A DNA stretch of 8,232 bases from Spartobacteria bacterium (GTDB lineage: Bacteria; Verrucomicrobiota; Verrucomicrobiae; Chthoniobacterales; UBA6821), in assembly GCA_003136515.1 (NCBI GenBank), contig PLEU01000151.1, forward strand, positions 322-8,553, given 5' to 3'. A program made the position numbers and the translations under genes. Below are positions 1,255 through 8,232 of the stretch, piece by piece. The number at the start of each line of letters is the position of its first letter. Positions within the stretch are counted from its first letter, which is position 1. Under the pieces are notes generated by a model. It ran no database searches. It had not been told where the DNA came from and saw only the letters and a program-made list of their open reading frames with translations.

Positions 1255-1605
1255 ATGCCTTATGCATTGAAAATTCTTCTGACAGTTTTAATGGTCGTAG
1301 CCATCAGCGAGGCCACGAAGCGTCTCGGTTTTGTAGGAGCGTTGCTCGCCGCATTACCGGTGACGTCACTGATCTCCATGATCTGGATCTACAGTGACAC
1401 GGGGGATACGGCAAAAATCGCGACCTTTTCTACTCAGGTCTTCTGGTTTGTGATTCCTTCGCTTGGCCTCTTTATGGCTCTGCCTTTGCTGCTGAAGCGC
1501 TATGGATTCTATCCAAGCCTCGTGCTGTCTTCTCTGGTCACTGTGATTCTCTATCTACTGATGCTTGGAATTTTCCGTCTAGTTCGCTATTCACCCGGGA
1601 TCTGA
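1255..1605 (+). CDS. DUF3147 family small integral membrane protein
   Basis: This 116-residue protein is almost entirely hydrophobic, with four likely membrane spans at about residues 5-22, 26-46, 60-80 and 87-108. The segment VAISEATKR followed by GALLAALPVTSLISMIW and DTGDTAKIATFST matches the remembered DUF3147 pattern (a conserved SE-x-KR near the N-terminus, an LPxTS motif in the second span and a TGD loop). The molecular function of the family is not known. The start at 1255 is the only reasonable one, because an in-frame TGA lies not far upstream with no other ATG between. A purine-rich GAAGGGG sits about 14 bases before the ATG. The gene follows the barrel gene after 162 bp, so co-transcription is possible but not shown. 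Its last 15 bp overlap the 3' end of the convergent sigma-factor gene. Confidence 0.8.
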   Translation: MPYALKILLTVLMVVAISEATKRLGFVGALLAALPVTSLISMIWIYSDTGDTAKIATFSTQVFWFVIPSLGLFMALPLLLKRYGFYPSLVLSSLVTVILYLLMLGIFRLVRYSPGI

Positions 1606-2178
1606 GAGATATCGCCGAAGTCCTGAACGGATCTGATGCCTGGCGTGACTGAGGCGTCTCTCTACGGCCTTAACGCTACAGTCCGCGACTCTGGCAATCT
1701 CTGCATGGGCAAGACCCTCATATTCGCTGAGAATGAGGGCTTCTCGGAGTTCGTCAGGAAGAGCGCTGATGGCCGACCTCACGGCGATTTCCCTCTCCTT
1801 TGATTCCGCCGAGAATCCGGGGTCTCCACATATGGTGACGTCCGCTGCTTCTTCCAGGGATACCGTTGGATGGCGTCGATGCCAGCGGAGATGTTGCCGT
1901 CCGAGATTGGCTGCAATCCCAAAGAGCCACGTTGAAAAGGATCGATTCGTGTCTGACTTTGGGCAAAAGCGAAGGCGTGACTGGTAGAGTCTGACAAAGG
2001 TCTCTTGGGCGAGATCGCCGGCGATGACTTCATCACCGGTAAATCGTATCAGATAACTGACAACACGGTTTTTCCACCGCTCCATGATCTCGTTGAGAGC
2101 CAGATCTTCTCCCGCAATGAGCCGTCGCATAGCCACTAGATCGGAATCATCATGGCCCGATGCCTTGTTCCCAGTCAT
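1591..2178 (-). CDS. ECF-type RNA polymerase sigma factor (CnrH-like position)
   Basis: A 195-residue sigma-70 family protein of ECF architecture. Region 2 spans about residues 12-102 and includes DLAQETFVRLY (55-65) and FSTWLFGIAANLGRQHLRW (81-99), which correspond to the core-binding and -10-recognising segments. A linker at about 103-137 leads to region 4 at about 139-186, with ALPDELREALILSEYEGL and the helix-turn-helix HAEIARVADCSVKAVERRLSHAR that reads the -35 element. No extra C-terminal sensor domain is present. The start is the ATG at 2178, which overlaps the stop of the upstream sensor gene in a TGATG. A TTG one codon earlier is an alternative but less likely. The lack of a strong ribosome binding site fits translational coupling to the sensor. 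It is the last gene of an operon also encoding an anti-sigma factor, so its activity is probably held in check at the membrane. Its target promoters cannot be identified with confidence. Confidence 0.92.
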   Translation of the reverse strand: MTGNKASGHDDSDLVAMRRLIAGEDLALNEIMERWKNRVVSYLIRFTGDEVIAGDLAQETFVRLYQSRLRFCPKSDTNRSFSTWLFGIAANLGRQHLRWHRRHPTVSLEEAADVTICGDPGFSAESKEREIAVRSAISALPDELREALILSEYEGLAHAEIARVADCSVKAVERRLSHARHQIRSGLRRYLSDPG

Positions 2179-2603
2179 CAACGCGATGGGCTATCGCACG
2201 GTTCGATTACAAGCGGAAGAACTTTGAGCAAATAATCGTGACGCCGTTCTGGCGGCAGGGCATCTGCAACAGAATAAAAATGATCCAGCATTTCTATGCG
2301 AGTCTCGGTTCTAATGCGGTCTGTCACGACGACTGCAGCCCTCAATTCGGGGGTGATGCTGTCAGATCCAAGAGCCAGCGTTTCAAGATCGCTGTTGGCC
2401 TTGCACATTTCACCGCAGAGATGACCGCAGCGATAGGCATACTCCTTTTCTGGCTCCTTGAGCTCATCCATCTGCTTGTGGCTGAGACCATATTCCCTAC
2501 AGAGCCAAAGAGTTGGTGGCTTCTGGAAAAAACGCTTCGATACCACGGCTGTTACCAGCCCGACTCCAACTACAAGGGCAAGAACAAGAAGGCCGCGTTG
2601 CAT
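2178..2603 (-). CDS. Membrane-anchored periplasmic metal-sensor protein, CnrX/Metal_resist-like
   Basis: A 141-residue protein with one N-terminal membrane span (residues 4-21) and a periplasmic alpha-helical remainder. The pattern WLCREYGLSHKQMDELKEPEKEY, then a Cys cluster, and later EMLDHFYSVADALPPERRHDYL, matches the helical-hairpin sensor family that includes CnrX and other periplasmic heavy-metal sensors. Possible ligands are Cys35, His42, Cys59, His61, Cys63, Met66, Cys67 and His108. The central cluster reads Cys59-x3-Cys63-x2-Met66-Cys67. Cupriavidus CnrX binds Ni/Co mainly through His, Glu and Met, so this thiol-rich version may prefer soft metals such as Cu(I), or sense redox state; that is inference. 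The gene follows the anti-sigma gene after 18 bp and overlaps the sigma gene by one base. The gene order is the same as cnrY-cnrX-cnrH. The ATG at 2603 gives the signal-anchor directly. I am confident of the family type but not of the ligand. Confidence 0.78.
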   Translation of the reverse strand: MQRGLLVLALVVGVGLVTAVVSKRFFQKPPTLWLCREYGLSHKQMDELKEPEKEYAYRCGHLCGEMCKANSDLETLALGSDSITPELRAAVVVTDRIRTETRIEMLDHFYSVADALPPERRHDYLLKVLPLVIEPCDSPSR

Positions 2604-2621: not shown

Positions 2622-2945
2622 TTAAGGCGGGGTGATTTGTGTTCTGTTTACCCGATAGGGATTTACTGAAAGTAAGTATTGCTCTTCCTGCATGGAGCGG
2701 GCCTGAAGCCCACCGACAAGAATGCCGATAAGCATCGCGATAGTCGCTGCAGAGAATGCCAGACGCGGACGGGCTAATGCTTGGAGCCAGCTGCACAGCG
2801 GAGCAAGAAAATCGACCCGTTCCCAAGAGTTGCCCTCGCTGCTTTCAATCCGAAGCCAGACCTGACGGTTGAAGCTGCCACCCAATTCGGTATTGGGATT
2901 CCAATTCTGGAGAAGTTTGGAAAGTTCGTTGTCAGGGGCAGACAT
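2622..2945 (-). CDS. Single-span anti-sigma factor (CnrY-like position)
   Basis: A 107-residue protein starting MSAPDNELSKLLQNW. It has a short cytoplasmic N-terminal part with the motif LSKLLQNWNPNTELGGSFNRQVWLRIE (described here as the LxxLLxxW and FNRxVWxRI elements), an amphipathic stretch WERVDFLAPLCSWLQALARP, one membrane span at about residues 61-80, and a short periplasmic tail with YLLSVNPY. This plan fits the small anti-sigma proteins that precede CnrX-like sensors, with the N-terminal helices binding the sigma factor. The open frame continues upstream to an ATG at 3086, but that start would overlap the cysteine-rich mini-protein gene and add an uncharacteristic sequence, so 2945 is preferred. 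The leader before 2945 has no strong ribosome binding site and contains a large hairpin. Function is inferred from topology, motifs and the position two genes before the sigma factor. Confidence 0.78.
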   Translation of the reverse strand: MSAPDNELSKLLQNWNPNTELGGSFNRQVWLRIESSEGNSWERVDFLAPLCSWLQALARPRLAFSAATIAMLIGILVGGLQARSMQEEQYLLSVNPYRVNRTQITPP

Positions 2946-2980
2946 GGCTTGATCGAGTTCACACTCTTGCACGATTCGTC

Positions 2981-3013
2981 GGCAGAGGCAGCCAATTTCG
3001 GCTCCCTCCTGCC
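2981..3013 (-). promoter_or_regulatory. Strong intercistronic RNA hairpin between mini-protein and anti-sigma genes
   Basis: Read on the - strand, this 33-nt segment folds into about 12 base pairs. GGCAG pairs with CTGCC, AGG with CCT and AGCC with GGCT, closing a GAAATT loop, with one bulged G and one G-G mismatch. It lies 12 bases after the mini-protein stop and 35 bases before the anti-sigma ATG. No U tract follows, so it is not a standard intrinsic terminator. It could act as a partial attenuator, an RNase stop that stabilises the upstream mini-protein message, or a translational control element. The fold is seen directly and the role is inferred. Confidence 0.5.
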
Positions 3014-3024
3014 CAAGCGAAGGG

Positions 3025-3201
3025 TTACTTGCAGCAGGTCGGGCAATTGCCGCCGGCACAGCTTTTGCAGGAACTGAAAGAGCCATTGCAGCAACTTGTG
3101 CACGTAGCTACATTATCGGCGGCTGAAGTGCTGGAGAGGCCGAATCCGGCTACGATTACTAGCAGGGCAGCTGCTTTGAGGAAGGTGGTGAGTGTATTCA
3201 T
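3025..3201 (-). CDS. Exported cysteine-rich mini-protein (metallothionein-like candidate)
   Basis: This 58-residue gene was found by direct translation of the - strand from the ATG at 3201 to the TAA at 3025. The N-terminus MNTLTTFLKAAALLVIVAGF, followed by GLSSTSAA, is a clear signal peptide: Lys9, a hydrophobic core at about 10-22, and a cleavage site near residues 26-28. The mature part would be about 30 residues with eight Cys at 34, 37, 38, 45, 48, 53, 56 and 57, in the near-symmetrical pattern CxxCC-x6-CxxC-x4-CxxCC. Ser, Thr, Gly, Asn and Lys make up most of the rest. No histidine is present and the only aromatic residue in the mature part is Phe42. The pattern suggests binding of soft metal ions, or disulfides, outside the cytoplasm. 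It is the first gene of the anti-sigma/metal-sensor/sigma operon, which supports a metal or thiol-stress role. No standard ribosome binding site precedes the ATG. I do not recognise a named family, and the function is inference. Confidence 0.8.
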   Translation of the reverse strand: MNTLTTFLKAAALLVIVAGFGLSSTSAADNVATCTSCCNGSFSSCKSCAGGNCPTCCK

Positions 3202-3227
3202 GTGTATTCAATGGTTCCGGGCAGGAA

Positions 3228-3259
3228 TGATTTCCCGCTCTAAAAGAGTGATTTCCCGC
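3228..3259. repeat. Perfect 11-bp direct repeat with 21-bp period, candidate operator or promoter element
   Basis: TGATTTCCCGC occurs at 3228-3238 and again at 3249-3259, exactly 21 bp apart (two DNA helical turns). The spacer contains the small palindrome CTCTaaaAGAG. On the - strand the units read GCGGGAAATCA and lie 27-58 bp upstream of the mini-protein ATG, where a promoter or operator is expected. GGGAAAT loosely resembles the GGAAC -35 core of ECF promoters, but no convincing -10 element was found at the right spacing, so a dimeric regulator site is equally possible. Confidence 0.45.
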
Positions 3260-3263
3260 GAAA

Positions 3264-3291
3264 GCCAAAATCCCCCAGTGTTTTTTTTGGC
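3264..3291 (-). repeat. Inverted repeat GCCAAAA/TTTTGGC, weak terminator candidate
   Basis: GCCAAAA at 3264-3270 is the exact reverse complement of TTTTGGC at 3285-3291, with a 14-nt loop that includes part of a run of eight T. On the - strand the hairpin is followed by only three T, so it would be a poor intrinsic terminator for the zinc-ribbon gene about 120 bp upstream. It may simply be upstream promoter DNA of the mini-protein operon. Confidence 0.2.
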
Positions 3292-3329
3292 GGAGGGAGG
3301 GTCAGAGTTCGGAGATAAGACATATATCC

Positions 3330-3364
3330 GTGAGACAGGAGTTTAAGCTATGCTCTAGTCTCAC
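3330..3364. repeat. Inverted repeat GTGAGAC/GTCTCAC after the zinc-ribbon gene
   Basis: GTGAGAC at 3330-3336 and GTCTCAC at 3358-3364 are perfect 7-bp inverted copies separated by 21 bases. Three or four further base pairs (GGAG with CTCT) are possible inside the loop after one A-A mismatch. It lies about 50 bp downstream of the zinc-ribbon gene's stop on the - strand. No T tract follows on either strand, so a terminator role is uncertain, and a protein-binding site is possible. Confidence 0.3.
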
Positions 3365-3412
3365 CCAGAGCAGGAGCGACGCAACGTGGCGCTAAATGCA
3401 CCAGACTGATAA

Positions 3413-4117
3413 TTACTGGGGTTCGTAGAGAATCCGCCCACACTGCGGACAGCCAATGATTTCCTTTTCGGCACGCACTTCGAGATGGGTTTGCATGTTG
3501 ACCTGCATGTGGCAACCGCTGCAGACCCCGTGCTCCACGGTGACGAGAGCGACGCCCACCTTGCTCTTGAAGAGACGGTTGTAGCGATCCAGGAGATCTT
3601 CATCGATTCCTTGGGTTGCAACGCTCCGCTCCGCTTCCAATTCTGTCTGACGGGAGGCGAGATTCACTCGACGCGCATCTAGGGAGGCCATATGGGATCG
3701 AACCTTCTTCTGCTCCTCGTCATGGGCTATTTGGGCAGCCTGAAGAGCAGGCTTGAGGTTCTCAGCCTCCTCCATCAGTAGCAATTCCCTGTCTTCTAGT
3801 TCGATGATGAACTTTTCTGCCATTTCAATCTCATGACGAAGTGCGGTGAATTCATCATTCTTGCGGGTTTCAAGCTGCTGGTTTTTATAACGCGCGATTT
3901 GGTCTTGCTTGGTCTTCACTTCGACCTCGAGCTTCTTACGCTCGACCTCGAGCTCGCGCTGACGCCCTCGTGCTGCATCGAGACGGTCATCGGCGGCCTT
4001 CATCTCCCGTTCCCGGGCAACCTTTTCTCCGGGGAGTGCCGCAATTTCCGTCAGGACAGCTCTGAGTTTCTGGTCGCGATCCTGAAGGGTCAGCAGTTTT
4101 TCGATTTGAGGGAGCAT
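3413..4117 (-). CDS. Coiled-coil/C4 zinc-ribbon protein, COG1579 family (CT398/CdsZ-like)
   Basis: A 234-residue protein. Residues 1-175 are strongly charged heptad-rich helix, expected to form a long antiparallel coiled-coil hairpin, and include the conserved NDEFTALRHEIEMAE (87-101). The C-terminal zinc ribbon has Cys199-x2-Cys202 and Cys223-x2-Cys226, with GVCSGCHM and GCPQCGRILY as the knuckles. This is the architecture of the COG1579 'C4-type zinc ribbon' family. In Chlamydia the member CT398 (CdsZ) is reported to interact with sigma-54 and with the type III secretion system. In most bacteria the role is unknown, and nothing here points to type III secretion. The gene follows the lipoprotein gene with 9 bases between stop and start. 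A GGAAG sequence just upstream of, and abutting, that stop can serve as its ribosome binding site at 12-base spacing, so the two genes are likely co-transcribed and translationally coupled. Confidence 0.9.
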   Translation of the reverse strand: MLPQIEKLLTLQDRDQKLRAVLTEIAALPGEKVAREREMKAADDRLDAARGRQRELEVERKKLEVEVKTKQDQIARYKNQQLETRKNDEFTALRHEIEMAEKFIIELEDRELLLMEEAENLKPALQAAQIAHDEEQKKVRSHMASLDARRVNLASRQTELEAERSVATQGIDEDLLDRYNRLFKSKVGVALVTVEHGVCSGCHMQVNMQTHLEVRAEKEIIGCPQCGRILYEPQ

Positions 4118-4126
4118 GACGCGCTA

Positions 4127-4711
4127 TTACTTCCAAAGGTATGACTGGGTCAGGGCGACTATCCTCCCATTGACAATGAGGAGGGCTCGCCAGTTGGTGA
4201 CGGGTCCATTCTCCAAGTAGTCATCCCCGATGACGGAAAACTGAGTTTTGCGCGAGCCTCGTACGGAGGTGTAGCTTTTTTCGCGTGCCATCACAAAGGC
4301 GCCAAGATTGGCTTGGCGGTATTCCAGCCGAACGGTGACATCTGCAGCCGGGCCGTGATTCCTCCAGAAAAAATTGAGGTAATTGCCCCGGAGGGCATCC
4401 ATGTCGAGGGCTGTCGTGGCAGGCCACATGTAGTAGCGACGTTCAAAGTCAATGGCCTCGTTCAACTGGCCCGTCTTGATATAAGTGGACGGATCATTGA
4501 GGAACTGAGTCTTTTTGCGGAAGGCAAAATTTGAATCAATGGCCAGCGGAAGGATATTGGCCTTCTCCAGCTTGACCTGCGGAGGCTCGGGTGTGGAGCA
4601 CCCGCTGGTCAGCAGCGATGACACTGCCATGGCGGCGATGCCCAAGGTGGTCTGCAGGAGTCGCCTGAATTGGCGGAGCGCCAGAGTGAGGGCAATTGAC
4701 GTGGGTCGCAT
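4127..4711 (-). CDS. Putative lipoprotein of unknown function
   Basis: A 194-residue protein with a long, Arg-containing N-terminal region (Arg2, Arg13, Arg16, Arg17), a hydrophobic stretch at about residues 18-34, and a lipobox LTSG-Cys38 suited to lipoprotein signal peptidase. After Cys38 comes a Pro-rich linker (STPEPPQ), and then a folded domain beginning near residue 48 that ends NWRALLIVNGRIVALTQSYLWK. The segments DFERRYYMW, LRGNYLNFFWRN and VTVRLEYRQ are likely conserved, with alternating hydrophobic strands in the C-terminal half suggesting a mixed or beta-rich domain. I do not recognise a named family. The alternative Met28 would leave no charged n-region for the signal peptide, so the ATG at 4711 is kept. 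The gene is divergent from gmhA and close upstream of the zinc-ribbon gene. The lipoprotein assignment is good and the function is unknown. Confidence 0.72.
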   Translation of the reverse strand: MRPTSIALTLALRQFRRLLQTTLGIAAMAVSSLLTSGCSTPEPPQVKLEKANILPLAIDSNFAFRKKTQFLNDPSTYIKTGQLNEAIDFERRYYMWPATTALDMDALRGNYLNFFWRNHGPAADVTVRLEYRQANLGAFVMAREKSYTSVRGSRKTQFSVIGDDYLENGPVTNWRALLIVNGRIVALTQSYLWK

Positions 4712-4868
4712 GAAGGATAAAGGAATCGCTCAGGATCAAAGCGGGTGGTTGCGGGCGTGTCAATGCGCCTCGACCCCGTAAGGGAGAGTGGATAGAGGGC
4801 TGCTCCCCTGGAACCCCCGCCGCTTAGCCATTCTTGACGCACGCTTTCAGCAAGCCCAATGTCGCTGG

Positions 4869-5435
4869 ATGAGTCAATTTCAGACCTCGCTCAACGCCCT
4901 GCAGGAAATACTCCAGACTCTCCCTGCCCTGCAGGATAGTTTGGAAAGGGCCGCCGCTCTTGCCGGGGATGCCCTGCTTGCGGGAAACAAGCTGATGTTT
5001 TGCGGCAATGGAGGTAGCGCCAGTGACAGCGCCCATCTGGCCACCGAGTTCACCTGCCGTTTCAAGGAGGATCGTCGTCCCTATCCGGCAATGGCCTTGA
5101 CCGTCGATGCAGGGCTGATGACAGCCATTGGAAATGACTACGAATTCACGAACGTCTTTTCGCGTCAACTTTCAGCATTCGGGAAGCCGGGAGATGTGCT
5201 TGTGGTTCTCTCTACGAGTGGCAAATCACGCAACATCCTTGCAGCTTTGGAAGAGGCCCGGAGGCGTGATGTGAAGAGCGTTGCCTTCCTTGGAAAGGGG
5301 GGAGGGTTCACAAAAGGGGCTGCCGATCTTGAACTCATTGTGCCCGGTACCGAAACCGCCCGCATCCAGGAGGTGCAGAAATTTTTACTCCATGTTTTCT
5401 GCGAAATCATCGAGGAGCGTCTGCCCAAGGCATAG
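4869..5435 (+). CDS. gmhA: Sedoheptulose 7-phosphate isomerase (phosphoheptose isomerase)
   Basis: A SIS-domain protein of 188 residues, close to the roughly 190 of E. coli GmhA. It converts D-sedoheptulose 7-phosphate to D-glycero-D-manno-heptose 7-phosphate in the cytoplasm, the first step toward ADP-heptose for the LPS inner core. The sugar-phosphate loop is CGNGGSASDSAHLATEF (45-61), and the second phosphate-binding stretch is STSGKSRN. The zinc/active-site set of the family is present: His56 and Glu60 in the first motif, and Gln167 and His175 in TARIQEVQKFLLH. AIGNDYEF is also typical. The frame is open to an ATG at 4788, but the sequence before 4869 is unlike the family, whereas MSQFQTSLNALQEIL aligns with the usual N-terminal helix. 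A DiaA-like or other SIS role is possible but less likely given the complete metal-ligand set. It heads a run of three + strand envelope genes. Confidence 0.9.
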   Translation: MSQFQTSLNALQEILQTLPALQDSLERAAALAGDALLAGNKLMFCGNGGSASDSAHLATEFTCRFKEDRRPYPAMALTVDAGLMTAIGNDYEFTNVFSRQLSAFGKPGDVLVVLSTSGKSRNILAALEEARRRDVKSVAFLGKGGGFTKGAADLELIVPGTETARIQEVQKFLLHVFCEIIEERLPKA

Positions 5436-5503
5436 GAAACCCGGAAGCATGCCAAGGCAAACGGGCTATCACAAAACTCTAGGCAACACCCGGCATTAAC
5501 CCC

Positions 5504-6667
5504 ATGGTTCTTTCGGCATTCACGCTCCCTAGTTCCTGGGCATTACAACTTCTCGTTGCGATTCTGGGTCTGATTACCGGATCATTCCTTAATGCGGTGA
5601 TTCATCGCCTGCCGCGAGGCATCTCCCTGCTGAATCCCAGCCGCTCGTTCTGCCCGAGTTGTCAAAAGATGATTCCTTGGCATGAGAATCTACCGCTTGC
5701 CAGCTGGGTGCTGCTGCGTGGACGGTGTTCCGGATGTGCCTTGCCGATATCGACCCGATATCCATTGGTGGAGCTGCTGAGCGCGGGGCTTTATCTCTTG
5801 GCCTGGAATCGGTTCGGTCTGCCGCTGGCAGTAGTTTTTTGGATCTTTCTCTCCATGCTGGTGGCCGCAACCTTCATCGATCTCGACCATCTCATCATTC
5901 CCGATGAGATTACACTCGGCGGGACTGCCGCAGGATTGTGCTGCGCCACCCTCCTTCCAAATCTCGTGGGTGCCTCCTGTTGGTGGCAGGGATTTCTCTG
6001 TTCACTTCTGGGGGGAGCCGTTGGGTATTGCCTACTTTGGGGGGTGGTGGAGTTGGGAAAGCAGGCCTTCGGTCAGCGCAGGATTCATTCCAAAGAGCCC
6101 TGCGCCTTTGAAATTCTCACAAAGCACGAAGGAACTGTCCAGCAGCGCTATCTAATAGTTGGTGAGGAAGAGTTGGCACTGGAGGAGGTTTTTTATCGCA
6201 CGAGTGACCGGGTGGAGGCTGTGTGCGAGTGGATTGAGATTTCGGGGAAACGCCTTGGAAATGGGCGACTCATTCTTGATCAGGAGAGCATTAAGTTTGA
6301 AGGGAGGGAATGGCCTCTTGGTGAGGTCTCAACGATCCGTGCCGAAGTGACCGATCTGATACTGCCGCGCGAGGCTATGGGATTCGGTGACGTGAAGTTT
6401 TTGGCCTTTATCGGAACCTTTCTGGGGTGGAAGGGCGCTCTTTTCTCGCTCTTTGCGGGGTCGATCGCTGGAGCCGTGCTCGGCCTCGGCCTGCTTATGG
6501 TCACGCGTGGCCGATCAGGAGGTCGGATTCCTTTCGGGCCGTATCTTGCAATGGGTGCAGCGCTTTGGGTTTTTGCCGGGCCGTATTTGGTGAGCCTCTA
6601 TTGCACAAGACTGCACGGGGTGGAAGGGCAGGCTTTTTTCCTCTCTCCGCTCCATTTGCCTGTATAA
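5504..6667 (+). CDS. pilD: Type IV prepilin peptidase (A24 family) with ~100-residue insertion
   Basis: A 387-residue polytopic membrane aspartyl protease that cleaves, and probably N-methylates, type IV pilin-like proteins at the inner membrane. The N-terminal domain has GSFLNAVIHRLPRG (26-39) and the two zinc-type knuckles Cys50-x2-Cys53 and Cys75-x2-Cys78. The catalytic aspartates are Asp126 in FIDLDHLIIPDEIT and Asp296 in GFGDVK. Membrane spans occur at about 12-30, 87-100, 105-125, 136-152, 162-182 and in the 300-365 region. The catalytic residues are about 170 positions apart, against about 64 in Vibrio TcpJ. The extra soluble segment (about 187-286) explains the length over the usual 250-290. 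Both catalytic motifs are intact, so the enzyme should be active. It starts 68 bp after gmhA, has no clear ribosome binding site, and ends 12 bp before the ABC exporter gene. No pilin genes lie in the window. Confidence 0.92.
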   Translation: MVLSAFTLPSSWALQLLVAILGLITGSFLNAVIHRLPRGISLLNPSRSFCPSCQKMIPWHENLPLASWVLLRGRCSGCALPISTRYPLVELLSAGLYLLAWNRFGLPLAVVFWIFLSMLVAATFIDLDHLIIPDEITLGGTAAGLCCATLLPNLVGASCWWQGFLCSLLGGAVGYCLLWGVVELGKQAFGQRRIHSKEPCAFEILTKHEGTVQQRYLIVGEEELALEEVFYRTSDRVEAVCEWIEISGKRLGNGRLILDQESIKFEGREWPLGEVSTIRAEVTDLILPREAMGFGDVKFLAFIGTFLGWKGALFSLFAGSIAGAVLGLGLLMVTRGRSGGRIPFGPYLAMGAALWVFAGPYLVSLYCTRLHGVEGQAFFLSPLHLPV

Positions 6668-6679
6668 GGTTTCCCCCCC

Positions 6680-8232
6680 ATGTCTCAACCGCAGTATACG
6701 CCTATTCAGCAGAAGAGATCCCTTTTGAGATTTCTTCCTGAAAGCTGGCGTCCCGCGAAAGAACTTCTCCCTTTTCTCGCCCCTTACAAGCAACGCCTGG
6801 CCCTCGGATTGCTTGCGGGTATTGGCTTTGCGCTCGCGAATGCCAGCTTATTGCCTCTGGTTAACAGGATAGCCGATACAGCCTTTCACGGAAAATTCAA
6901 TCCAACGGATTTGATGAAAGGATCAGGGGCGGGACAAGGATCGGGTATTAGTGGCTTTCTTTGGATGATTGTGCTCATCCCGATCGTGATGATTTTGCGA
7001 GGACTCCTCGCATATGCGAATGTCTATTGTCTCACTTGGGTCAGCCTGAAGGCGTTGCGCGATATGCGCCGCCGGATCTTTGCTCATCTGATGGGCCAGT
7101 CGCTTGATTTTTTCAACAAGGCGCAGTCGGGCCGTCTCCTCTCCCGTGTCCTCAATGACACGATGGTGGCTCAAGAGTCGGTGGTCAGCATTGTCGGAGA
7201 GTTGGTGAAGCAGCCGCTGGCGGCAATTGGAGTCATCGCTTACCTATTCTACAAAGATTGGAGGTTCAGTCTCTTCGCGCTGGTACTTTTTCCACTCTGT
7301 CTCGTACCGGTGATCATCTATGGGCGGCGTGTTCGCAAGGCGGCTCGTGCCATGCAGAACGAAGCGGGGGTCATGGCGGTGATCCTCCAAGAGTCCTTTG
7401 CCGGTGTCCGAGTCATCAAGTCCTTCGCTCGCGAGGCCTTCCAACTCCGACTTTTTGACAAATCGAGCGATCAGCAGTTTCGCTCCAACATGAGCGCAAA
7501 AAAGAGTATGGCCATCGTGCAGCCTATGATGGAAAGCGTCTCAGCCTTCGGTGTCGCCTTGGCACTTTTCTATGTCTATTATTCGCATCTCACCATCGGA
7601 AGTTTTTTGGCACTCCTTGGAGGACTCTTCCTCCTTTATGATCCGATCAAGAATCTTAGCCGGATTCATGTGACGATTCAGAATTGCGTGGGAGCCGCAA
7701 CCAGCATTTTGGAACTGCTCGATACCAAGCCGACGATCCATGATCTCCCTGGTGCCCGTCCCCTGGAGAAGGTCCGCGGCCACATCGCTCTGGAGGCGCT
7801 GAGCTTTTCCTATGGTATTCCGGGTGTTACGGAGGAGGGCAATGCCATCACTGGATTGAACCTTGTCATACAGCCTGATCAGAAAGTCGCCCTCGTTGGA
7901 GCCAGCGGAGCGGGGAAGAGCACAATCCTTTCACTGCTCCTGCGGTTCTACGACCCGCAGCAGGGAAGAGTACTCATCGATGGGAATGATCTGCGCGATT
8001 TGACACTCCATTCTCTCCGTGAACAGATCGGCATCGTCACCCAGGAGAACTTTCTCTTTCACGACACGATCTACGAGAATATCCGCTTTGGCCGCCTCGA
8101 CGCCACCAGGGCCGAGATCGAGGAAGCGGCGCGTCTTGCCTATGCCCATGACTTCATTATGGCCCAGCCGCATGGCTATGAGACTCTCGTGGGTGACAAG
8201 GGCTCGCTCCTTTCCGGAGGTCAGCAGCAGCG
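6680..8232 (+). CDS. ABC exporter, fused permease/ATPase, MsbA-like (3' end beyond window)
   Basis: The frame stays open from the ATG at 6680 to the window edge, giving 517 complete codons. The permease domain (about residues 30-345) has roughly six spans and the typical coupling segments LDFFNKAQSGRLLSRVLNDT and ESFAGVRVIKSFARE. The ATPase domain follows, with Walker A GASGAGKST (407-415), the Q-loop at Gln455 in VTQENFLFHDTI, and the signature LSGGQQQ (511-517) as the last visible residues. Walker B, the D-loop and the H-loop would lie beyond the edge, in an expected 70-85 further residues. The architecture is that of homodimeric lipid A/lipid or multidrug exporters. The neighbouring gmhA favours a lipid A or LPS-related flippase, but sequence alone does not separate MsbA from related exporters. 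AAGG, formed by the end of the previous stop and the next bases, lies 10 bases before the ATG, and a run of seven C fills part of that spacer. Confidence 0.93.
   Translation, partial: MSQPQYTPIQQKRSLLRFLPESWRPAKELLPFLAPYKQRLALGLLAGIGFALANASLLPLVNRIADTAFHGKFNPTDLMKGSGAGQGSGISGFLWMIVLIPIVMILRGLLAYANVYCLTWVSLKALRDMRRRIFAHLMGQSLDFFNKAQSGRLLSRVLNDTMVAQESVVSIVGELVKQPLAAIGVIAYLFYKDWRFSLFALVLFPLCLVPVIIYGRRVRKAARAMQNEAGVMAVILQESFAGVRVIKSFAREAFQLRLFDKSSDQQFRSNMSAKKSMAIVQPMMESVSAFGVALALFYVYYSHLTIGSFLALLGGLFLLYDPIKNLSRIHVTIQNCVGAATSILELLDTKPTIHDLPGARPLEKVRGHIALEALSFSYGIPGVTEEGNAITGLNLVIQPDQKVALVGASGAGKSTILSLLLRFYDPQQGRVLIDGNDLRDLTLHSLREQIGIVTQENFLFHDTIYENIRFGRLDATRAEIEEAARLAYAHDFIMAQPHGYETLVGDKGSLLSGGQQQ

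Follow-up and report, generated by a model that had tools for sequence, protein, structure and literature searches.

Protection of the bacterial periplasm is usually credited to efflux, oxidases, chaperones, bufferins or Csp1, and the known bacterial metallothioneins are, to our knowledge, made without a signal peptide. An 8,232-nucleotide stretch of a Spartobacteria bacterium genome (contig PLEU01000151.1, positions 322 to 8,553, hereafter the window) carries on its minus strand a gene for a Cys-rich peptide of 58 residues, predicted to be exported (3025..3201, stop codon included), which heads a CnrYXH-type operon. We consider it probable that this peptide is an exported metallothionein-like protein that would buffer or sequester a soft, thiol-loving metal outside the inner membrane. 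A narrower proposal, to which we assign slightly less than an even chance, is that the peptide represents a sole-effector family of Sec-exported metallothioneins under a dedicated CnrYXH-like circuit with a one-gene regulon, the same slot in other Verrucomicrobiota being filled by different exported proteins.

The closest described circuits are CnrYXH and NccYXH of Cupriavidus metallidurans, the former with a mechanism outlined in PMC7689651. Common to these circuits and the present locus are an anti-sigma factor, a periplasmic sensor and an extracytoplasmic function (ECF) sigma factor encoded together, as well as the sensor fold, here a predicted one. The present system departs from CnrYXH in its sensor ligands and apparently in its output; its first gene encodes a Cys-rich peptide with an export signal, and the operon lacks a pump. 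Bacterial metallothioneins such as SmtA/BmtA, MymT and PmtA are likewise small, Cys-rich and easily overlooked by annotation. According to PMC7558416, MymT was a non-annotated open reading frame (ORF), and the present peptide is easily overlooked because it spans fewer than 60 codons. The peptide family shares with the metallothioneins a small size, a high Cys content, Cys clusters and few aromatic residues, and differs from them in bearing a probable signal peptide and no His. In an open-licence literature search, no bacterial metallothionein with a signal peptide was found, the nearest case being PmtA, which PMC11237414 places at the cell surface by a route left unexplained. Csp1 is an exported Cys-rich copper store (PMC7558416); it is Tat-exported and forms a pre-folded four-helix bundle, whereas the mature peptide here has about 30 residues. 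If the proposal is right, a Sec-exported peptide with its own sigma factor and no adjoining maturation enzyme would offer a simple solution of a separate kind, and the compact one-promoter, one-effector system would suit end-to-end tests of envelope metal sensing by ECF sigma factors.

A conserved gene for a cysteine-rich peptide

The minus-strand ORF (3201-3025) encodes MNTLTTFLKAAALLVIVAGFGLSSTSAADNVATCTSCCNGSFSSCKSCAGGNCPTCCK, with the Cys spacing CxxCC-x6-CxxC-x4-CxxCC, and on re-reading the sequence we found its strand, coordinates, length and spacing to be exactly those given in the initial annotation. Residues 1-28 (3118..3201, minus strand) form a probable Sec signal peptide ending in STSAA, a call made by eye and from the conservation of an N-terminal Lys, a hydrophobic stretch and an A-x-A motif in the alignments. 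The mature part, residues 29-58 (3028..3117, minus strand), contains eight Cys in 30 residues. A twin Arg ahead of the hydrophobic stretch occurs in none of the sequences inspected, and the Tat model TIGR01409 scores 11.8 bits, below its cut-off, on the window peptide. No Shine-Dalgarno-like sequence was seen in the 24 bases ahead of the peptide ATG (3202-3225, minus strand), and the peptide leaders of several family loci are A/C-rich.

Searching with the sigma factor pointed to Spartobacteria bacterium UBA6821 (Verrucomicrobiota), in which a 55-residue peptide, 60% identical to that of the window, heads an equivalent operon whose sigma factor is 67% identical. Within one Spartobacteria-type family, 13 of 22 genomes have homologues of the peptide, one copy (genome G091) being broken. 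Of 384 genomes sampled evenly across the class, 9 have strong matches, and of 387 sampled evenly across the phylum, 3 have matches, every one of them a member of the same family. With an E limit of 1, an alignment (A4) recovered 42 relatives from the protein database, each at 1e-4 or lower; none has a precomputed Pfam domain, and the few names are "hypothetical" or "predicted secreted protein". The window peptide alone yielded no candidate from that database, and among 84 stretches of viral contigs that fit the Cys pattern there are no relatives. Five weak class matches (E 0.005-0.01) were rejected after reading as another kind of sequence, and a second weak match in genome G001 (E 0.14, locus L006) was rejected as sitting in an unrelated frame.

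The 58-residue ORF is a real gene and more than a chance reading frame. The initial annotation had made the gene depend on conservation of the ORF and its Cys spacing in related genomes and on coding constraint, and neither test speaks against it: across 13 aligned genes (the window included, the G091 copy left out), all eight window Cys are retained in 13 of 13, and over the 78 pairs the mean proportion of synonymous differences (pS) is 0.52 and that of nonsynonymous differences (pN) is 0.17, a pN/pS of about 0.32. Furthermore, 9 of the 12 pairs between the window and the other genes are unsaturated, and in these the ratio of nonsynonymous to synonymous substitution rates (dN/dS) ranges from 0.14 to 0.56. 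In G091, the peptide and sensor genes (locus L035, about 5764-6302) are interrupted by stops and changes of frame, and database protein P0041 is similarly altered, reflecting either decay or assembly error; on contig C50 of the same genome, a sensor piece lies 2.5 kb from a CusA gene.

To describe the Cys pattern, we assembled 53 sequences (the window, 42 database proteins and 10 from genome loci), dropped five as odd or partial (P0036, P0039, P0041, P0042 and P0043) and collapsed identical mature parts, leaving 46 distinct mature peptides. Cys makes up on average 31% of their residues and His is absent; CxxC and CC are present, and CxC is not. The number of Cys per peptide is 8 in one, 9 in 25, 10 in five and 11 in 15. 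Aromatic residues occur in three of the 46, two of these cases being artefacts of the cut rule, which put the end of the signal in the wrong place in P0029 and P0040 and also produced two of the ten-Cys counts. The third is the window peptide itself, which has Phe (TTC) at a ninth position occupied by Cys in all 12 of the other aligned genes. Thus the near-symmetrical eight-Cys pattern of the initial annotation is exact for the window but is an outlier in its family.

The many Cys together with the export signal could also suit a disulphide-rich folded peptide, defensin-like or structural, a reading to which we give the smallest chance of those considered. The Cys number is odd in 40 of the 46 peptides, and the second Cys cluster is movable between relatives (CKSCC or CKACKGC), which argues against a fixed or purely disulphide-bonded peptide. 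AlphaFold gives no confident fold for the window peptide (mean pLDDT 59), and a profile search of solved structures returned 11 low-scoring matches (best E 0.005), none of them a credible relative.

Bufferins and oxazolins are likewise Sec-exported Cys peptides, and bufferins, according to PMC12452194, chelate excess copper and have clusters that include sigma-factor genes. A signal followed by a Cys-rich core, as in bufferins, together with the DGKC sequence in many family cores and weak NCBIfam matches (TIGR04117 in 12 of 43 members, best E 0.003; TIGR03601 in 2 of 43, best E 0.0024), could point to a bufferin-like peptide, or to another ribosomally synthesized and post-translationally modified peptide or bacteriocin, that is matured on Cys. 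We judge this very unlikely. The genes for an MNIO enzyme and its partner adjoin the bufferin and oxazolin genes and were not found beside the peptide here. The MNIO domain PF05114 occurs in 1 of 22 family genomes, that is in 1 of the 13 peptide-bearing ones, which argues against a bufferin-like peptide, although the genomes may be incomplete. The single genome with PF05114 (G001) has it on contig C76 and the operon on contig C133, and we set the bufferin idea aside as unsupported. In most loci, moreover, no gene from outside the operon stands beside the peptide, the genome-wide maturase search having covered MNIO.

The operon and its predicted metal sensor

The genes follow one another on the minus strand in the order peptide, anti-sigma factor, sensor and ECF sigma factor. 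Specifically, the anti-sigma factor (2622..2945) has one transmembrane segment, is CnrY-like by position and matches no Pfam model over its cut-off; the sensor (2178..2603) is a membrane-anchored, small helical protein; and the sigma factor (1591..2181, with a TTG start at 2181 and an ATG at 2178) is CnrH-like by position. The four genes are complete and in this order in the window and in 11 of 13 family loci; in a twelfth (L038) the operon is the same and the sigma gene runs off the contig end. A sensor profile search matched the 13 of 22 family genomes that have the peptide, the G091 sensor being in pieces, but not the remaining nine, a co-occurrence with P = 2e-6 if the genomes were independent, which, being related, they are not. 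The homologues and the operon order bear out the initial claim of a Cys-rich peptide with an export signal, first in a CnrYXH-type operon.

The predicted structure and alignments of the sensor point to a CnrX fold, so that the comparison with CnrX holds, in a structure search with the predicted sensor, at the level of predicted fold. The metal ligands of CnrX, which we take to be His residues, Glu63 and Met123, are not matched as a set: H108 is kept, Cys35 stands at a His position (that of NccX) and Val112 at the position of CnrX Met123. Residues C35, C59, C63, C67, C136 and H108 are invariant across 13 sequences.

Counting family members, 96 of the 384 class genomes have sensor relatives. From outside the family we fetched the 20 loci with the best scores, which come from 18 genomes. 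In 10 of these 20 loci (L078, L079, L082, L085, L086, L090, L091, L092, L095 and L097) the sensor has a CusA-type resistance-nodulation-division (RND) pump or a P1B-ATPase no more than 10 kb away, against about 0.8 expected from gene numbers and genome sizes, in a hand tally that treats the loci as independent; if the gene counts are tripled, P is still about 1e-5. In particular, the ATPase of L079 scores above the cut-off of the copper model, L086 and L091 contain TolC-, CusB- and CusA-like sets, and L082 has a P1B-ATPase directly upstream; the gene lists of the other ten loci contain no CusA or P1B-ATPase. Within the family, P1B-ATPases lie near the operon in genomes G195, G124, G312 and G143, the one scanned (G143) scoring best, among the metal-specific models, with Cd/Zn, and in one locus (L040) CusF-SCO1 and SCO1 genes stand beside the operon.

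The same sensor could instead serve a redox circuit, in which its Cys would respond to oxidants or to compounds that react with thiols, with the peptide as a sacrificial store of periplasmic thiols instead of a chelator. Five invariant sensor Cys, the export signal of the Cys-rich peptide and the two SCO1-type, thioredoxin-like genes of L040 would all suit such a circuit, and the Pfam scan of neighbours, which covered 10 proteins, may have missed redox genes. We nevertheless consider it unlikely, albeit with a real share of probability, because related sensors lie near heavy-metal efflux genes well above chance and the predicted fold is that of a metal sensor.

The slot ahead of the anti-sigma gene is not confined to the Cys peptide. 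By eye, 12 of the 20 outside loci (L078-L081, L083, L084, L086, L092 and L094-L097) have in it a small, signal-bearing-looking protein unlike the Cys peptide, L087 has a larger one, and none was seen in the remaining seven; further exported-looking proteins occupy the slot in L002 and L003. The Cys peptide seems to be one family's version of a variable effector slot. This variety bears on whether the peptide is itself regulatory, binding the sensor or the anti-sigma domain by thiol exchange or metal hand-over and setting the threshold of the circuit as a periplasmic co-sensor. Although the peptide occurs together with the sensor, the operon contains no other candidate effector and few further sites of the promoter-like motif described below exist, a swappable effector suits better than a dedicated co-sensor because the slot contents, as read by eye, differ between related operons, and we regard a regulatory role as decidedly unlikely.

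Other proteins encoded around these operons were noted. The slot protein of L086 (about 2385-2870) is His-rich and exported-looking, and the TolC/CusB/CusA-like set of that locus lies downstream on the same strand (approximately 3882-7501). In L003, a sigma operon is flanked by two related exported-looking proteins (4735-5088 and 6863-7303) that have L(S/A)PRAAGN motifs and end in a C-terminal VAPLK; the locus has a second sigma match at 10531-11094. In L030, L032, L033, L034 and L039, an exported-looking protein of about 100 residues with several CxxC pairs, zinc-ribbon-like, is encoded just beyond the sigma gene.

A promoter-like motif, an intergenic hairpin and a possible leader hairpin

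The sequence upstream of the peptide gene contains a promoter-like motif, GGGGGATTT-N8-GCGGGAAATCAC in the window (3248..3276, minus strand) and GGGGATTY-N8-GYGGTGAATYAC in its family form, which is probably the promoter of the ECF sigma factor. The 28-base motif GGGGATTY-N8-G[CT]GG[TG][GA]AAT[CT]AC is found with fixed spacing ahead of the peptide in 14 of 14 cases (the window and 13 loci). With a slightly looser form, each of the 13 operon-bearing genomes has exactly one site, at the operon, and the nine others have none; since the motif was derived from the operon sites, its presence there is by construction and its absence elsewhere is the result. A reversed-motif control gave zero sites. 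With up to three mismatches, six extra sites appear in the 13 genomes, against three for the reversed motif. We read two of the six, L111 and L114, and left out L112, L113, L115 and L116; the L111 site (two mismatches), which precedes an unrelated reading frame in a single genome, may be genuine. A scan for sigma-70 promoters at 2900-3420 found none.

Because the motif occurs once per operon-bearing genome, at the operon, the sigma factor looks as if it serves its own operon alone, with the peptide as its only non-regulatory product, though weaker second promoters may have been missed. In the RNAalifold fold the motif's halves also pair with each other, and the motif may therefore be a dyad-symmetric operator instead of a sigma promoter.

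A strong conserved hairpin without a U-tract lies between the peptide and anti-sigma genes (2981..3014, minus strand). All 13 folded sequences (the window and 12 loci) form it, with z of -2.9 to -6.5, and changes on both sides occur at 9 of 15 consensus pairs, other pairs being broken in some rows; the total RNAalifold covariation is near zero (-0.13 kcal/mol). No T-tract terminator was found in a scan of 2900-3420. The hairpin is possibly an attenuator, causing partial termination, or a stabiliser of the mRNA 3' end, and as either partial terminator or message protector it would yield more peptide than regulator. A candidate hairpin in the 5' leader (3219..3239, minus strand) has two covarying pairs and an unfavourable overall RNAalifold covariation (+0.18 kcal/mol), and we regard it as only a lead. 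A scan of the window against Rfam gave no match.

Proposed mechanism and further genes of the window

In the metal-buffering mechanism that we favour, the CnrX-fold sensor would sense metal through a Cys/His site, and the metal-bound sensor, by analogy with CnrYXH, would relax the anti-sigma factor and free the ECF sigma factor. The freed sigma factor would then fire a single promoter, that of its own operon, and the promoter-proximal position of the peptide gene, followed by the hairpin, would give much peptide and little regulator. The Sec-exported peptide, with a mature length of about 27-36 residues, would hold metal in thiolate clusters in the periplasm, and the fall in free metal would switch the response off. 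The bound metal would most likely be Cu(I), with Zn, Cd, Ag or Hg possible, and copper is our first guess.

Several observations weigh against metal buffering. Unlike SmtA/BmtA, MymT and PmtA, the family matches none of the known metallothionein models of Pfam and NCBIfam (43 members, E up to 1), and free thiols in the periplasm may be open to oxidation. The match of the window sensor to Pfam Metal_resist (E 0.0079) is below the cut-off, and none of its Foldseek matches has an E-value better than 3e-3. Among the genes of the window, none was recognised as encoding metal efflux. The identity of the metal is ambiguous, because the family ATPase that scores with Cd/Zn points one way and the CusF and SCO1 genes of L040 another. 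Lastly, in locus L035 of G091, the peptide and sensor lie in pieces near a contig end with no anti-sigma match between them.

Elsewhere in the window, a 194-residue lipoprotein-like protein is encoded at 4127-4711 (minus strand); it matches nothing in Pfam or NCBIfam at E up to 1 and is conserved in L028 and L030. The plus strand encodes at 118-1092 a protein of 324 residues with a signal-like start followed by a CACGCG stretch, which has no Pfam match at the cut-off; its relatives occur in the stretches retrieved around the operons of L029, L033, L034, L037 and L040.
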